From a virus, in the IMG/VR virus record IMGVR_UViG_3300046005_000805, positions 1-21,240 of that record: DNA of 21,240 bases. One strand, written 5' to 3'. Position numbers and translations under genes: made by a program. Under the pieces are notes generated by a model. That model ran no database searches, was not told the DNA's origin, and saw only the letters and a list, made by a program, of their open reading frames with translations. Positions 2,607-20,961 of the stretch are shown here, in pieces; within the stretch, counting starts at the first letter, position 1, and the number at the start of each line of letters is the position of its first letter.

Positions 2607-2614
2607 TATATTTG
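2607..2614 (+). promoter_or_regulatory. Promoter (TATATTTG) of the methyltransferase/HNH unit
   Basis: TATATTTG matches the Bacteroidota -7 consensus TAnnTTTG and lies in the string TTTGTATATTTGTAT. That string precedes all three plus-strand units (also 7155-7162 and 16066-16073). The structured leader begins 4 nt later, so the transcript should start at or near the first stem. No clear -33 element was assigned. Confidence 0.65.
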
Positions 2615-2617
2615 TAT

Positions 2618-2703
2618 CGCAATCCATCACTTGCGGTTAAGATATTGCTTTCATTAGCAACCGAGAAACCCTTTAGAGTGTGATGGCTTTAAGGGGTTTT
2701 CTC
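2618..2703 (+). ncRNA. Kissing-hairpin RNA leader, copy 1 (candidate new structured RNA)
   Basis: Stem P1 is CGCAA (2618-2622) with TTGCG (2631-2635) around the 8-nt loop TCCATCAC. The loop segment CCATCAC (2624-2630) is perfectly complementary to GTGATGG (2680-2686). That target lies inside the loop of stem P2, formed by GAGAAACCCTT (2663-2673) and AAGGGGTTTTCTC (2691-2703, one bulge and one extra G). This copy has an extra hairpin, TTGCT/AGCAA (2645-2660), between P1 and P2 that the other copies lack. The linker TTTAGAG (2672-2678) before the target segment is shared with copy 3. The leader ends 19 nt before the methyltransferase ATG. Pairing was worked out by eye; the role is unknown. Confidence 0.7.
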
Positions 2704-2722
2704 ATTTATAACATTTAATATT

Positions 2723-3427
2723 ATGAGTTTAACAATCACAAACGAGGATAATATGGAGCTAATGGCTCGTTATCCTGACAATTATTTTGATTTAACAATA
2801 ACATCACCTCCTTATAATTTAGGTGAAAAACATCATACAGGAAATAAAAGATTTAAAGCCTATGATGGTTTTATTGACGATATGCCTGAGGAAGAATATC
2901 AAAAACAACAAATAAAAGTTTTAAATGAAATATTCAGAATAACCAAAGAAGGAGGAAGTTTAATGTATAACCATAAAAACAGAATAAAAAATGGTAAGCA
3001 AATAACACCTTATGAATGGATTTTAAAAACTGAATGGACTATAAAGCAGGAAGTTGTTTGGTTTAATAGAAGTCAAAATTTTGATAAATGTAGGTTTTAT
3101 CCAATGACAGAAAGAATATATTGGTTATCAAAAGGAGAAAAAACAGAATTTTATAACGAAATAAATCAACACGATTTATTAAAAGACACAGCAGAAGGAA
3201 CAAACAAAGAGCATAAAAGAGCGTTTCCTTTGTCTTTAGCAGAAAGATTAATAATGTGTTTTCCTAATTCTAAAAATATTTTAGACCCATATACAGGTAG
3301 CGGAACTACTGCAATAGCATCTCACAATCTTAATAAAGATTTTGTTGGATGTGAATTATCTAAAAAAGCATACGACAAAGCGATGCAAAGGATTACAAAT
3401 CATACTAATCAAACTAAACTGTTTTAA
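2723..3427 (+). CDS. DNA methyltransferase of the N4-cytosine/N6-adenine type
   Basis: This 234-residue protein would methylate an exocyclic amino group of cytosine or adenine in DNA, using S-adenosylmethionine. The catalytic motif TSPPYNLG is near the N-terminus (about residues 27-34). The SAM-binding motif DPYTGSGTT is near the C-terminus (about residues 188-196), followed by GCELS. This order is that of beta-class enzymes in the N6/N4 methylase family. An SPPY core is commonly found in N4-cytosine enzymes, but the target base cannot be set from this alone. It is the first gene after leader copy 1 and is followed 2 nt later by an HNH endonuclease gene, so both are probably on one transcript. 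It may protect phage DNA from host or self-encoded nucleases; that is inference. Confidence 0.88.
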   Translation: MSLTITNEDNMELMARYPDNYFDLTITSPPYNLGEKHHTGNKRFKAYDGFIDDMPEEEYQKQQIKVLNEIFRITKEGGSLMYNHKNRIKNGKQITPYEWILKTEWTIKQEVVWFNRSQNFDKCRFYPMTERIYWLSKGEKTEFYNEINQHDLLKDTAEGTNKEHKRAFPLSLAERLIMCFPNSKNILDPYTGSGTTAIASHNLNKDFVGCELSKKAYDKAMQRITNHTNQTKLF

Positions 3428-3429
3428 TT

Positions 3430-3951
3430 ATGGAAAATATAGAAATTTGGAAAGACATTGAAAATTATGAATATTATAAAATTAGCAATTTAGGCAGAGT
3501 AAAAAGTTTAAGTAGAAATAGAAGATGTGGAAAAATATTTTATATAACAAAAGAAATGATATTAAAGCCTACACTCGGACAGAATGGATATTTCTATATT
3601 ACTTCTTTAAAAAACACAATTCATAGATTAATAGCTATATCGTTTATACCAAACCCACACAATTATCCTTGCGTAAATCACATTAACGGAATTAAAACCG
3701 ATAATCGAGTTGAAAATCTTGAATGGTGTACTTATTCTCAAAACAATAAACACGCTTACGATACGAAATTAAAAATTCCACACGAAAGACAAGGAACTTC
3801 TAATCCTTGTTCAAAGTTAACAGAAAAAGAAGTTTTAGAAATAAGAGAAATTGGGAACAAATTATCTACTGTAAAACTAGGAAATATTTATAATATTCAT
3901 CCAAGTATGATTTCTTTAATATTAAAAAGAAAAAACTGGACACATATATAG
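3430..3951 (+). CDS. NUMOD4-HNH homing-type endonuclease, copy 1
   Basis: A 173-residue endonuclease. The N-terminal NUMOD4-like DNA-binding segment (EIWKDIENYEYYKISNLGRV, about residues 5-24) is followed by an HNH core with IHRLIA (H65) and VNHINGIKTDNRVENLEW (H84, N92, N96). A C-terminal helix-turn-helix-like part (about residues 125-173) starts with the SKLTEKEVLEIR segment shared by the family. It probably cuts or nicks a specific DNA site and so spreads its own unit. Unlike the other two copies it has no leader of its own, but follows the methyltransferase gene by 2 nt. Its stop codon directly abuts the stop codon of the convergent tape measure gene (3952), with no terminator visible, so its transcript may run antisense into that gene. 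Confidence 0.9.
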   Translation: MENIEIWKDIENYEYYKISNLGRVKSLSRNRRCGKIFYITKEMILKPTLGQNGYFYITSLKNTIHRLIAISFIPNPHNYPCVNHINGIKTDNRVENLEWCTYSQNNKHAYDTKLKIPHERQGTSNPCSKLTEKEVLEIREIGNKLSTVKLGNIYNIHPSMISLILKRKNWTHI

Positions 3952-7154: not shown

Positions 7155-7162
7155 TATATTTG
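7155..7162 (+). promoter_or_regulatory. Promoter (TATATTTG) of the second HNH unit
   Basis: This is the same TTTGTATATTTGTAT string as in the other two units, immediately before leader copy 2. A second rightward TATATTTG lies 30 bp upstream at 7126-7133, so the unit may have tandem promoters. Confidence 0.65.
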
Positions 7163-7163
7163 T

Positions 7164-7243
7164 ATTGTCGAGGTCAAGCGATAAAACAATTTAATAAAAT
7201 TCCCGATTATTAAGGACTTGACCCCTTTTTATTCGGGTTTTTT
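7164..7243 (+). ncRNA. Kissing-hairpin RNA leader, copy 2 (candidate new structured RNA)
   Basis: P1 pairs ATTGT (7164-7168) with ACAAT (7186-7190) and CG (7169-7170) with CG (7179-7180), leaving a bulge on the 3' side, around the 8-nt loop AGGTCAAG. The loop segment GGTCAAG (7172-7178) is perfectly complementary to CTTGACC (7217-7223). That target lies in the loop of P2: CCCGATTA (7202-7209) with TATTCGGG (7230-7237), one mismatch. P2 is followed by T6 (7238-7243), giving it the look of an intrinsic terminator, and the HNH ATG follows 5 nt later at 7249. There is no Shine-Dalgarno site. Confidence 0.72.
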
Positions 7244-7248
7244 GTATT

Positions 7249-7770
7249 ATGGAAATTTGGAAAGACGTTGTAGGGTATGAAGGTTTATATCAGGTATCTA
7301 ATTTAGGAAATGTTAAAAGATTGTCAGTTAACAAATTGAATGGTCGTTTTTTTAGTATTTGTAAAGAAAAAATATTAAAAGATAAAAAAAATAAATATGG
7401 ATATGTAAACATTACTTTAACTAATGACGGAAATGTAAAAACATTTTTATCACACAGGCTAGTCGCTATAGCTTTTATACCTAATCTAAAAAACAAACCT
7501 TGTGTTAATCACATTAATGGAATTAAATACGACAATCGTGTTGAAAACTTGGAGTGGGTAACAGCAAAAGAAAACACCAAACACGCTTATGATACTGGAT
7601 TACAAAAATCAGTTAAGGGAGAATTACATTGTCAATCTATACTAACTGAAAAAAAAGTTTTAGAAATTAGAGCGAGTAATTTAAAACAAAAAGATTTAGC
7701 AGTTATTTATAATGTTGGGTACAAGTTAATAAGTCAAATAAAATTAAGAAAAACTTGGAAACACATTTAA
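7249..7770 (+). CDS. NUMOD4-HNH homing-type endonuclease, copy 2
   Basis: A 173-residue relative of the other two HNH proteins. It starts EIWKDVVGYEGLYQVSNLG (NUMOD4, about residues 2-20), then LSHRLVAIAFIP (H69) and VNHINGIKYDNRVENLEW (H88, N96, N100). The C-terminal part contains LTEKKVLEIRASNLKQKDLA, a helix-turn-helix-like segment probably used for DNA recognition. It has its own promoter and kissing-hairpin leader. Its stop codon overlaps, on the opposite strand, the stop codon of the convergent late gene ending at 7767, a very tight fit suggesting precise insertion between two late genes. Confidence 0.9.
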   Translation: MEIWKDVVGYEGLYQVSNLGNVKRLSVNKLNGRFFSICKEKILKDKKNKYGYVNITLTNDGNVKTFLSHRLVAIAFIPNLKNKPCVNHINGIKYDNRVENLEWVTAKENTKHAYDTGLQKSVKGELHCQSILTEKKVLEIRASNLKQKDLAVIYNVGYKLISQIKLRKTWKHI

Positions 7771-15840: not shown

Positions 15841-16035
15841 TTATTCAGTTGGTGCTTTTACGTATTTTTTTCTCCCCGAATATTTAGATAGATATTTTTG
15901 GTTTGCTTCCTTGATTTTAGCATACTTCAATATCTCTTTTTGTCGTTCTAAAAAAGCCTCTTGTTTTACCTTTTCCGCTTTTTTACGTAGAAATAAATTA
16001 AAAAACCATTCTATCGCTATAAATATATATTTCAT
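15841..16035 (-). CDS. Small basic late protein, 64 aa, with N-terminal hydrophobic helix
   Basis: It begins MKYIFIAIEWFFNLFLRKKA, a hydrophobic segment of about 16 residues followed by a Lys-rich helix, and ends KYVKAPTE. It could be a small membrane-anchored protein. The frame extends upstream to an ATG at 16092, but that longer form would overlap the promoter and first stem of the plus-strand HNH leader. The ATG at 16035 lies 11 nt after a promoter-like TATCTTTA (16053-16046), so I chose it. The function is unknown. Confidence 0.6.
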   Translation of the reverse strand: MKYIFIAIEWFFNLFLRKKAEKVKQEAFLERQKEILKYAKIKEANQKYLSKYSGRKKYVKAPTE

Positions 16036-16045
16036 ATTTTTTATG

Positions 16046-16053
16046 TAAAGATA
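16046..16053 (-). promoter_or_regulatory. Promoter-like element (TATCTTTA) of the 64-aa gene
   Basis: One base off TAnnTTTG and pointing left, 12 bp from the rightward promoter at 16066-16073. This repeats the divergent arrangement seen at the other two HNH units. Confidence 0.4.
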
Positions 16054-16065
16054 ATATATTTTTTG

Positions 16066-16073
16066 TATATTTG
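16066..16073 (+). promoter_or_regulatory. Promoter (TATATTTG) of the third HNH unit
   Basis: This is the same TTTGTATATTTGTAT string found before the other two units. Leader stem P1 starts 5 nt later. Confidence 0.65.
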
Positions 16074-16077
16074 TATT

Positions 16078-16155
16078 AGTGAGTACGACCACTATTAAAA
16101 TTTATTACAATTCCCGATTATTTAGAGCGTCGTACCTCTTTTTAATCGGGTTTTT
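16078..16155 (+). ncRNA. Kissing-hairpin RNA leader, copy 3 (candidate new structured RNA)
   Basis: P1 is AGTG (16078-16081) with CACT (16090-16093) around the 8-nt loop AGTACGAC. The loop segment GTACGAC (16083-16089) is perfectly complementary to GTCGTAC (16129-16135). That target lies inside the loop of P2: CCCGATTA (16113-16120) with TAATCGGG (16143-16150), a perfect 8-bp stem followed by T5. The linker TTTAGAG before the target segment matches copy 1, and CCCGATTATT matches copy 2. The HNH ATG is at 16167. Confidence 0.75.
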
Positions 16156-16166
16156 AATTATATATT

Positions 16167-16679
16167 ATGGAAGTTTGGAAAGATATTGTTAAGTATGAAG
16201 GCATTTATCAAATAAGCAATCTTGGAAATGTAAAAAGTATGAGTTTTCAAAAAAGCGGAAAAGAAAAATTAATGAAAATGACAAAAGGACAAGCTGGTTA
16301 TTTGAAAATAATTTTAAGACTAAACTCAATAAAACATACATATTCTATTCATAGACTTGTAGCTATTGCATTTATTGATAATTTAGAAGAAAAACCACAG
16401 GTTAATCATAAAAACGGGATTAAAACTGATAATAGGGTTGAAAATTTAGAATGGAATACAAGTAAAGAAAATATTAATCATTCTTATAATACTGGGCTAA
16501 AAAAAGGATATAAACTTGGACAAAAAGGAATAACAAATCCATCAAGTAAACTTAACGAAAAAGATGTTTTAGAGATAAGAAATAGTACTTTAAGAGGTGC
16601 TGAATTAGCAAGAAAATATAATGTTAGTTCAACATTAATTTATAGTGTTTTAAAAAATAAAATTTGGATTCATATATAA
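16167..16679 (+). CDS. NUMOD4-HNH homing-type endonuclease, copy 3
   Basis: A 170-residue relative of the other two. It has a NUMOD4 segment (EVWKDIVKYEGIYQISNLG, about residues 2-20), IHRLVAIAFI (H62), VNHKNGIKTDNRVENLEW (H81, N86, N89, N93) and a C-terminal helix-turn-helix-like part (about residues 127-170). It probably makes a site-specific cut that promotes spread of its unit. It has its own promoter and leader and ends in a shared bidirectional terminator, so unlike the other two units it is insulated from the convergent late gene (scaffold, ending at 16720). Confidence 0.9.
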   Translation: MEVWKDIVKYEGIYQISNLGNVKSMSFQKSGKEKLMKMTKGQAGYLKIILRLNSIKHTYSIHRLVAIAFIDNLEEKPQVNHKNGIKTDNRVENLEWNTSKENINHSYNTGLKKGYKLGQKGITNPSSKLNEKDVLEIRNSTLRGAELARKYNVSSTLIYSVLKNKIWIHI

Positions 16680-16710
16680 AAAAGCATTGCTTTTAAAACA
16701 ATGCTTTTTT
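16678..16710. terminator. Bidirectional intrinsic terminator
   Basis: A 12-bp perfect stem, AAAAAAGCATTG with CAATGCTTTTTT, has a 9-nt loop and lies between the convergent HNH gene and the scaffold-like gene. It gives a U-tract on both strands. Confidence 0.82.
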
Positions 16711-16719
16711 ATATTTTTA

Positions 16720-17511
16720 TTATACTTTTAAAGTTCCATCTTTTATTCTCTTAGACATCTCTGTATTTTTTTGAGAATCATTCCATCCGTTTTTGATGGC
16801 CTCTTTTTCAAAACTTTCAAAAGAACCTTGTTTATACTGCTTGGCATCATCTCCTTTACCACTTCCCCCCTCTACTTTTGCTAAATATGGTGTTGCAAAG
16901 TTTGTTACCCAACTTGCAATGTCAATAGGAGATAAGGTTTTTTCGTCCTTCAACACCTCTCCGTTTTGTTTTACAATGGTCTTTCCTTCTTCCCTTTCAA
17001 AAGAAAATCCTTTTTCCTTAGCTTCGGTAAAAATGGTAGATTTTGAAACAAGTGTATTGTCTGGAATGTGTTTCGTGAAATCGTTTTTAATTTCTGAAAG
17101 TAGGTTTTGTTTTTCAATGTTTGTCTTGAATGCGTTAAATTCGTTTTCTTTTTCTACTAAATTACCCTGTAATTTCTCAAAATCGGTCTTTAACGACTTG
17201 TATTTCTCCTCTGGCTCAATTTTACTATCGCTTTCAGTCTTTGCTTTGATTGCATTCACCAGGTTCTCCATTGTTTTTCCTGTAAACTCCAATCCTAATA
17301 CGTTTCTCTGCTCTTTTACAGCCATTTCAAGTGCTGTTTTTGCAGTTTCTTTCTTGATGTTCTCTAATCTTTCATCATAAATTGATTTTTTTTCTATCAA
17401 CAACTCTGATAAATCAATTTTATGTTTCTCTTCACTTGTAATCATTTCCGTTAGCGTACCGCCTTCAATCCCTAGAGCTTTTTCAATCTCTAATACATTT
17501 TCTAATGCCAT
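16720..17511 (-). CDS. Probable capsid scaffold protein, 263 aa
   Basis: A highly charged, mostly helical protein with long coiled-coil stretches (about residues 20-150: KIDLSELLIEKKSIYDERLE; KYKSLKTDFEKLQGNLVEKE) and a Gly/Asp-rich loop before a short C-terminal tail. This composition and its position between portal and major capsid genes fit a scaffold protein, which shapes the procapsid and is then removed. No protease catalytic motif was seen. It is followed by a strong terminator. Confidence 0.7.
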   Translation of the reverse strand: MALENVLEIEKALGIEGGTLTEMITSEEKHKIDLSELLIEKKSIYDERLENIKKETAKTALEMAVKEQRNVLGLEFTGKTMENLVNAIKAKTESDSKIEPEEKYKSLKTDFEKLQGNLVEKENEFNAFKTNIEKQNLLSEIKNDFTKHIPDNTLVSKSTIFTEAKEKGFSFEREEGKTIVKQNGEVLKDEKTLSPIDIASWVTNFATPYLAKVEGGSGKGDDAKQYKQGSFESFEKEAIKNGWNDSQKNTEMSKRIKDGTLKV

Positions 17512-19597: not shown

Positions 19598-20961
19598 TTA
19601 CCATAAAATTCTTGGTTTATGCTTCCCTTTTATCTCCACATAAGCCCTCATCATTATCGCATCAGCAAAGTCAGGACTTCGTTTCAACCTCTCTTTCAAA
19701 TCTACTTTCCTCTCTATCGCCAAGTACCCATCATCATCCAACGGTTTTCTATTTATTTGCTCAAACTCCTCAATTATTTGTTTTGAATAAACTTTATCCT
19801 GTATAAATACCTTGCCATCCTTTACCAAATCCGCAAAGTAAAAATAACATTGTGCTTTCAAATTCTTATAGTTCTCTGTTTTCCCTGATACCTTAATCGC
19901 TCTGCCATTGTTCTTGAAACCTACAGCACCACTCAATACCCCAAACTTACTACTAAACCTAGTAAACGTCTGCAATCCATCACTATCATAAATCACATTC
20001 TTAATTGGCACTCTATGCTCTATCCTCAAATCATTCAACTTCTTGCTTATCATTGTATCGTCTATCTTGTCAATAGCGATTATCTTTATTGCTACCATCC
20101 CAGCCCATATCACTATTACAAACTTATCCGAACCTGTATAAGCAATATCCGCAGTGATATATCTGTCCTCAGTTGGCTTAACCCACTCACTTGTAAACAT
20201 CCCCAAGATATTCTCATAGTCAAACATAGCATAAGGATTGTCATCAAAATTCCAATCTCCTTCTAATAACCTCTTCCTACTCGCTGTATCTAAACTCTTC
20301 AAAGTCTCTACATAACTCTCGTGCAAATGCGGATTGTCAGTTGGTAAAGCCTGTATGAACTTCCTGTACTTTGGCAAACTATTACTCAAACTCGGATTGT
20401 AAAAGTTTGAATACGTCCAATTCTTAGCAGGATTACAAGTCATCAACATCTTAGGTATCAACTTATACTCCCTCAATTTATACCTTATCCTACTCTTTAC
20501 TATCTGTACTGCCTTCTCCGTACACTGATTGCACTCATCTACAAACGCACCCGTTATCTCCAAAGACCCCAAACTGTCAAAATTAGGGTCACTCGGATAT
20601 AGAAATAAATCCTTCAATAATATCTCACTACCATTCAACCAAGTTATAACATTAGTCTGACTATTGTATTTGTACTGATTAGCCAACCCTAAATCACTGC
20701 TCAACTGAAAAAATGTATTCAATGTAGTCTCCTTCAATGCCTTCAACTTCGCCCTACCCATTAACCACCTCGTCTTTGGGTATTTCTGACATTGCTCCAT
20801 TAACCACAACACACCCAATGCTGATTTTCCTCCATTCTTTACCCCCTAATATTGCTACTAGGGGGTTAACAACCACCAGCCCCTCCGCCATAGAGAAGCT
20901 CGGTGGTTTCCGAATCGTTTAGGTAGTAAACTGCGTACTGTTGCTTTTTTAATAACTCCAT
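19598..20961 (-). CDS. terL: Terminase large subunit, interrupted in the P-loop by 41 nt
   Basis: The DNA-packaging motor. The start at 20961 is 20 nt after a TACATTTG promoter and gives a normal N-terminus running into TTELLYGGGAGG, after which the frame meets TGT TAA. The rest resumes at 20830 in another frame with GKSALGVLWLMEQC and runs to 19598. Leaving out 20831-20871 gives 440 residues with an intact Walker A (GGAGGGKS, about 26-33). Walker B (FVDE) is near residues 126-129, and a coupling motif (MLMTCNPA) is near 158-165. Nuclease acidic residues are in ITADIAY (D258), YDSD (312-314) and PDFADA (417, 420). Without the P-loop the enzyme could not hydrolyse ATP. Either the gap is bypassed or removed, or the gene is broken, or the sequence is wrong. 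Confidence 0.85.
20831..20871 (-). other. 41-nt interruption in terL with stop codon and 8-bp hairpin (bypass-like element)
   Basis: On the coding strand the upstream frame reads GGT GGT, then TGT TAA. An 8-bp perfect hairpin follows (20859-20866 with 20841-20848, 10-nt loop), then AAGAATGGA, and the downstream frame continues GGA AAA TCA. Both flanks are glycine codons (GGT before; GGA GGA after). The length is 41, so the frame changes, and every direct read-through route to the terL frame meets stops or needs two shifts. The shape (glycine take-off codon, nearby stop overlapping a stem, glycine landing codon) matches that of the 50-nt gap in T4 gene 60. Junctions can be set at equivalent positions a codon either way. 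Confidence 0.75.

Follow-up and report, generated by a model that had tools for sequence, protein, structure and literature searches.

Three copies of a two-hairpin leader

The window, by which we mean the whole stretch of 21,240 nucleotides analysed here (positions 1 to 21,240 of IMG/VR virus record IMGVR_UViG_3300046005_000805), carries three copies of a structured leader, each preceded by a promoter box and followed by a gene on the same strand (Table 1). The endonucleases adjoining these leaders comprise 170–173 aa and combine NUMOD4 with HNH_3. All loops of the three copies are 8 nt long, with one free base and seven that pair with the other loop; in copy 1 these read U-CCAUCAC in hairpin 1 and U-GUGAUGG in hairpin 2, the 7-mers being exact complements. 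Folding yielded MFE z-scores of -4.8, -4.6, and -3.4 for copies 1, 2, and 3, respectively.

The first-pass annotation, made from the letters alone, had placed copy 1 at 2618–2703, with CCATCAC and GTGATGG as exactly complementary loops, and had named two further copies with the 7-mers GGTCAAG and GTACGAC. The positions and bases of copy 1 are correct, and both further copies are present, each 7-mer having its complement downstream. A detector that required both hairpins, complementary 7-mers in them, and the TAnnTTTG box found three matches in the window against a chance expectation of about 0.05. The annotation had also given all three copies the same fold, which holds for copies 2 and 3 (type 1) but not quite for copy 1 (type 2), where hairpin 2 is long and unbroken and a middle hairpin is present. 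That added hairpin, which had been noticed already, is a mark of the subtype.

Table 1. Leader copies, their promoter boxes, and associated genes in the window
Feature	Position	Strand	Details
Copy 1, -7 promoter box	2607–2614	+	TATATTTG; consensus TAnnTTTG at -12 to -5 (PMC6847099, PMC9723704); predicted transcription start 2619
Copy 1, hairpin 1	2618–2635	+	CGCAA-UCCAUCAC-UUGCG; kissing 7-mer CCAUCAC, 2624–2630
Copy 1, middle hairpin	2645–2660	+	UUGCU-UUCAUU-AGCAA; type 2 subtype mark
Copy 1, hairpin 2	2663–2703	+	GAGAAACCC..GGGGUUUUCUC; loop UGUGAUGG; kissing 7-mer GUGAUGG, 2680–2686
N6_N4 DNA methyltransferase gene after copy 1	2723–3427	+	Pfam PF01555, E 2e-30
NUMOD4/HNH_3 endonuclease gene, second gene of copy 1 unit	3430–3951	+	Pfam PF07463 and PF13392
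Copy 2, -7 promoter box	7155–7162	+	TATATTTG
Copy 2, hairpin 1	7165–7184	+	Kissing 7-mer GGUCAAG, 7172–7178
Copy 2, hairpin 2 (7202–7237) and U-tract	7202–7243	+	Kissing 7-mer CUUGACC, 7217–7223
NUMOD4/HNH_3 endonuclease gene after copy 2	7249–7770	+	
Copy 3, -7 promoter box	16066–16073	+	TATATTTG
Copy 3, hairpin 1	16077–16094	+	Kissing 7-mer GUACGAC, 16083–16089
Copy 3, hairpin 2 (16113–16150) and U-tract	16113–16155	+	Kissing 7-mer GUCGUAC, 16129–16135
NUMOD4/HNH_3 endonuclease gene after copy 3	16167–16679	+	
Segment missing from empty-site relative L595	~16014–16726	.	Promoter, leader, HNH gene, terminator-like hairpin 16680–16712; right-hand limit approximate, falling in 75% identical sequence

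Elsewhere in the window, on the minus strand, the Walker A motif of the terminase large subunit is split by about 41 nt (20831–20871; TGTTAACCCCCTAGTAGCAATATTAGGGGGTAAAGAATGGA). The insert holds a stop codon and a strong hairpin (-20.7 kcal/mol for the whole stretch) and recurs in assemblies G001 and G171. In L650, a relative with 78% identity, the motif runs on without a gap as GGSAGGGKS. It could be a ribosomal bypass (cf. T4 gene 60), another form of recoding, or a broken gene.

Family members and subtypes

Members were gathered from IMG/VR, seeded by HNH proteins and hairpin 2 patterns. In 4.3 Mb of fetched sequence the detector gave 208 raw matches, against 10 in reversed sequences; these reduce to 134 distinct examples, a few of them visibly due to chance. 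Three other searches were set aside: a first pattern scan (AATTCCCGATTATT) and a pattern scan of genome contigs, whose matches were mostly chance and, in the latter, scattered across all phyla, and a very loose detector (262 matches versus 207 in the control). Among the MAFFT alignments, A3, A4, and A6 put some loops out of register; A5 and A7 were used, together with anchor-based pair counts.

Two subtypes were distinguished. In type 1 (window copies 2 and 3), 37–40 nt separate the loops, and hairpin 2 is built from a lower stem of 7 bp and an upper stem of 4 bp with a 3×3 internal loop between them. The extra middle hairpin sets type 2 (window copy 1) apart, along with a long hairpin 2 (GAGAAACCC...GGGTTTTCTC) and a loop 1 of 8 or 9 nt. 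A type 2 model trained with copy 1 left out recovers copy 1 at E 4.4e-8, and a search with the type 1 model did not recover it. The internal loop of type 1 hairpin 2 (e.g., L217:13205–13245) is GAU/UGA in 74 of 95 members, a count inflated by the search pattern, with possible tandem G–A and U–U pairs; some other type 1 members are all-U at this place. The loop may serve recognition or lend flexibility.

The leader is also found in cultured phages: 34 records of Flavobacterium Moomin phages carry it upstream of a gene annotated "endonuclease", and F. columnare phage FCL-2 carries it at 37487–37596, upstream of a Phg_2220_C gene, so that the family is directly testable. In bacterial genomes it is rare (2 of 87 in one family). 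The type 2 model found no match in 396 Bacteroidota genomes, a weak search in which 10 candidates per genome were scored, and blastn of two other type 2 members against phages returned none.

Covariation and the loop–loop helix

The proposal of an RNA leader family with a kissing helix is borne out by this material, about 130 distinct examples from covariance-model and other searches of phage sequences, in that the loop pairs covary in many further homologues. Among 24 type 1 sequences, 98.7% of cells are paired and both sides have changed in 18 of 22 pairs; the covariation score is 0.70, against 0.17 for shuffles and values no higher than 0.15 for slid controls, and the loop–loop helix shows double changes in five of its seven pairs. 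The 20 type 2 sequences are 95.4% paired, rising to 100% in the loop–loop helix, where three pairs are doubly changed.

Because many sequences had been gathered by complementarity, the loop–loop pairs were omitted from the search models, with which whole virus records were searched. Seven Watson–Crick loop–loop pairs were read automatically in 53 of the 60 matches (26 multi-copy contigs); four of the other seven had been misregistered by the script, and some of the 60 were training sequences. The 7-mer codes lying outside both training sets include ATGCAAG/CTTGCAT, CTCTCAC/GTGAGAG, GTAAGGC/GCCTTAC, TCACGAC/GTCGTGA, and GGACTAG/CTAGTCC. On the sense strand, G–U cells exceed A–C cells by 43 to 15, which identifies the sense RNA as the paired molecule. 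The loop–loop duplex is worth a computed -7 to -10 kcal/mol; the type 1 upper stem alone has a dG of at least 0 in 76 of 95 members. We regard it as virtually certain that the RNA family and its loop–loop pairing are real.

Position between promoter and start codon

The elements come in a uniform order, from the TAnnTTTG promoter through hairpin 1, the linker, and the terminator-like hairpin 2 with its U-tract to the ATG. In F. johnsoniae the -7 box occupies positions -12 to -5 (PMC6847099), and the TAnnTTTG consensus is also given elsewhere (PMC9723704). By this rule, 105 of 128 members have the 4-bp stem of hairpin 1 starting at predicted +1/+2, so the transcript would open with hairpin 1. 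In 132 of the 134 distinct examples an ORF starting with ATG lies directly downstream, nearly always 23–42 nt past loop 2, which places the base of hairpin 2 about 10–20 nt ahead of the start codon; given this position, a stand-alone RNA is possible but less likely than a leader. Hairpin 2 extends into the -20 to +20 zone around the start, a zone that in F. johnsoniae normally lacks structure (PMC6847099).

Of 127 leader genes, 104 have five consecutive T no more than 25 nt from the ATG, compared with 99 of 912 other long ORFs. The mean MFE of hairpin 2 is -13.3 in type 1 and -21.4 in type 2, where the U-run lies partly inside the stem. A simple terminator scan called only copy 1 terminator-like, type 1 stems failing its rule owing to the internal loop.

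Three structural genes of the window have a different leader, on the minus strand at 2574–2511, 7119–7053, and 9111–9043. It consists of TAnnTTTG, TA[A/C]TGAATGTAATGC, a 10-bp hairpin, and GCATTTTTT, with the ATG about 20 nt further on, and its stems show compensatory base differences between copies. Promoter, U-tract hairpin, and ATG therefore form a wider layout in the window phage.

Genes behind the leader and mobility

Just over half of the ORFs that follow the leader (68 of 132) belong to one homing-endonuclease cluster (NUMOD4-HNH; GIY-YIG with NUMOD3). Primases are also found there (BT4734-like_N/PriCT_1; Prim-Pol/DUF3987), as are a ResIII/DEAD helicase, AAA_25, DUF5906, a C5 methylase, PAPS reductase, DUF6291, Phg_2220_C, and small unknown proteins. 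A phage protein family of 78–79 aa (MNTISVQGFKIDINHFDTQISK...), for which Pfam gave no match, recurs behind leaders with GTCGTCG or GTCGTAG (L331–L341 and others).

At copy 3, about 0.7 kb is missing from a relative, L595, that shares 98% identity in the flanking gene; promoter, leader, HNH gene, and terminator are all absent. Comparison with this empty site indicates that copy 3 was inserted as one piece with its promoter, gene, and terminator, which would make it a case of a homing unit bringing its own structured control region. In other relatives the same intergenic site is occupied by an opposite-strand GIY-YIG gene that has a separate leader, the 7-mer being ATGCAAG or GTCGCAG. Insertions recur in the gap ahead of the 342-aa, major capsid-like gene, a hot spot (L607, L610, L612, L620, L625, L629, and L631) where the window phage has an HNH unit and relatives have a GIY-YIG unit on the opposite strand, each with a kissing leader. 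For copy 1, loci of relatives with the 854-aa neighbour gene and its upstream flank showed no methyltransferase or HNH match and no leader, in a comparison that leaves out G001 and G171, both of which end short of the copy 1 region.

The first-pass annotation had tied the RNA to the mobile unit rather than to one protein. This stands insofar as the leader accompanies HNH genes in the window and GIY-YIG genes at the same site in relatives, but it does not cover the roughly half of the examples in which the leader heads other phage genes, such as those for primases, helicases, and AAA proteins; many members precede genes without known mobility. The leader thus travels with different endonucleases but stands ahead of core genes too, and looks like a general phage leader that is carried by homing units as well.

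Proposed function and alternatives

Our best reading of the family is a cis-acting 5′ leader RNA in phages of Flavobacterium-like Bacteroidota. That this leader is a transcription attenuator, in which the loop of a terminator is captured by the 5′ hairpin, has in our judgement about an even chance; transcript start, short terminated RNA, and read-through are all predicted from sequence. Hairpin 1 would fold first, and its loop would capture the emerging loop 2 sequence before the polymerase has made the terminator's 3′ arm. The frequency with which hairpin 2 forms early enough to halt transcription would depend on this capture, as would, in full-length mRNA, the blocking of the ribosome-entry zone. 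The gene would thereby be kept low or delayed, with capture favouring either termination or read-through. Homing units would bring the leader along as a ready-made promoter and gate, and replication genes would use the same device.

As in an attenuator, a terminator-like hairpin and U-tract lie between promoter and gene. The consensus folded without the 3′ arm of hairpin 2, representing the nascent transcript, forms the 7-bp loop–loop helix alone, which can coexist with hairpin 2; besides this helix, no alternative antiterminator was found in that fold. No switching ligand, protein, or alternative fold was found for the leader. The layout could be a general 5′-UTR design, since the structural genes too have a U-run hairpin between promoter and ATG.

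The leader may instead be a passive 5′-UTR element, hairpin 1 and the kissing fold shielding the mRNA from decay or setting ribosome access with no regulated termination. Such a role would suit the location of hairpin 1 at the extreme predicted 5′ end and the different, simple hairpin leader that the structural genes of the phage bear in the same place, but it leaves unexplained both the U-tract bias (104/127 versus 99/912) and the upkeep of seven loop–loop pairs; we consider it possible, if doubtful. An autonomous antitermination RNA, whose hairpins bind RNA polymerase and so permit read-through of later terminators or pauses, would make the leader a licence and not a gate. In size, position, and hairpin number the leader resembles HK022 putL, which has two stem-loops in about 70 nt directly after an early phage promoter and works without a phage protein (PMC9378689). 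However, the second hairpin here is itself terminator-like and adjoins the start codon, in many cases the leader serves a lone short gene that has a terminator to itself (e.g., window copy 3), and no loop–loop helix has been described for put, kissing being unmentioned in PMC9378689; put-like action seems unlikely to us.

Terminated leaders of about 90 nt might also build up and act in trans, their loops pairing with nascent leaders of the same gene to give gene-specific feedback through different 7-mers. No 7-mer is common to two leaders of one contig (0 of 43 pairs, 3.0 expected, permutation p = 0.027), a result that is suggestive only, because the 7-mer tends to track gene lineage and the test is confounded. 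Cross-pairing among the three window copies is worth about 0 kcal/mol, versus -9 for cognate pairs, but some 7-mer pairs within a genome are one base apart, and intramolecular pairing should win. Both trans action as such and a private 7-nt loop–loop address, by which terminated leaders act on their own gene only, strike us as quite improbable; were the address real, moving homing units would bring along mutually insulated RNA feedback gates. Finally, every part is also an inverted repeat in DNA, but the sense-strand excess of G–U over A–C cells (43 versus 15) and the location of the element, which begins where transcription is predicted to start and shares its strand with the gene behind it, led us to reject operator or homing-endonuclease sites acting as DNA as very improbable.

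Comparison with known systems

Rfam 15 (4227 covariance models) gave no match at the window copies (E up to 5) or at 17 loci holding other members (E up to 1), in agreement with the earlier remark that no named family is known to have this layout, and a search of the open-access literature found no paper naming the leader RNA. Apparently, the family has had no name so far. The candidate RNA HMP_4078, of 109 bp, comes from Bacteroidetes and lies near phage D5_N and integrase genes; its published description, in contrast to the leader, is of a palindromic RNA lacking a predicted terminator (PMC8040213). HEARO, the IsrB-associated RNA, differs in that the leader has no Rfam match and adjoins a NUMOD4 and HNH_3 nuclease rather than RuvC-HNH.

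HK022 putRNA is like the leader in its size of about 70–100 nt and in having stem-loops where a phage transcript begins, just past the promoter; two stem-loops are predicted at that end here as well (+1/+2 in 105 of 128). In contrast, put suppresses distant terminators via the β′ zinc-binding domain of RNA polymerase, whereas the leader includes a terminator-like hairpin and belongs to phages of Bacteroidota, hosts with promoter and ribosome-entry rules of their own. Intrinsic-terminator attenuators as a general class share the series of promoter, short leader, terminator-like hairpin with U-tract, and gene. The leader departs from them in that its 5′-terminal hairpin pairs with the terminator loop, and no leader peptide, ligand domain, or competing antiterminator hairpin was found.

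In the antisense-controlled attenuators of plasmids pT181 and pIP501, a loop–loop contact beside a terminator also decides transcription, the partner being a separate RNA from the opposite strand, whereas the two complementary loops of the leader lie on one strand, in one RNA from one promoter. Purine-type riboswitches, often located upstream of a terminator, likewise have a fold closed by a loop–loop helix, but the leader has no three-way junction (P1–P2–P3), closing P1 helix, conserved ligand core, or Rfam match.

In Bacteroidota phages, genes for homing endonucleases and for replication thus stand behind a strongly covarying RNA, whose numerous natural 7-nt codes could become raw material for orthogonal RNA gates in these bacteria. 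A structured phage 5′ leader is of a known kind; to our knowledge, no described family has a 5′ hairpin that kisses the loop of a terminator-like hairpin, and this pairing would constitute a new leader architecture.
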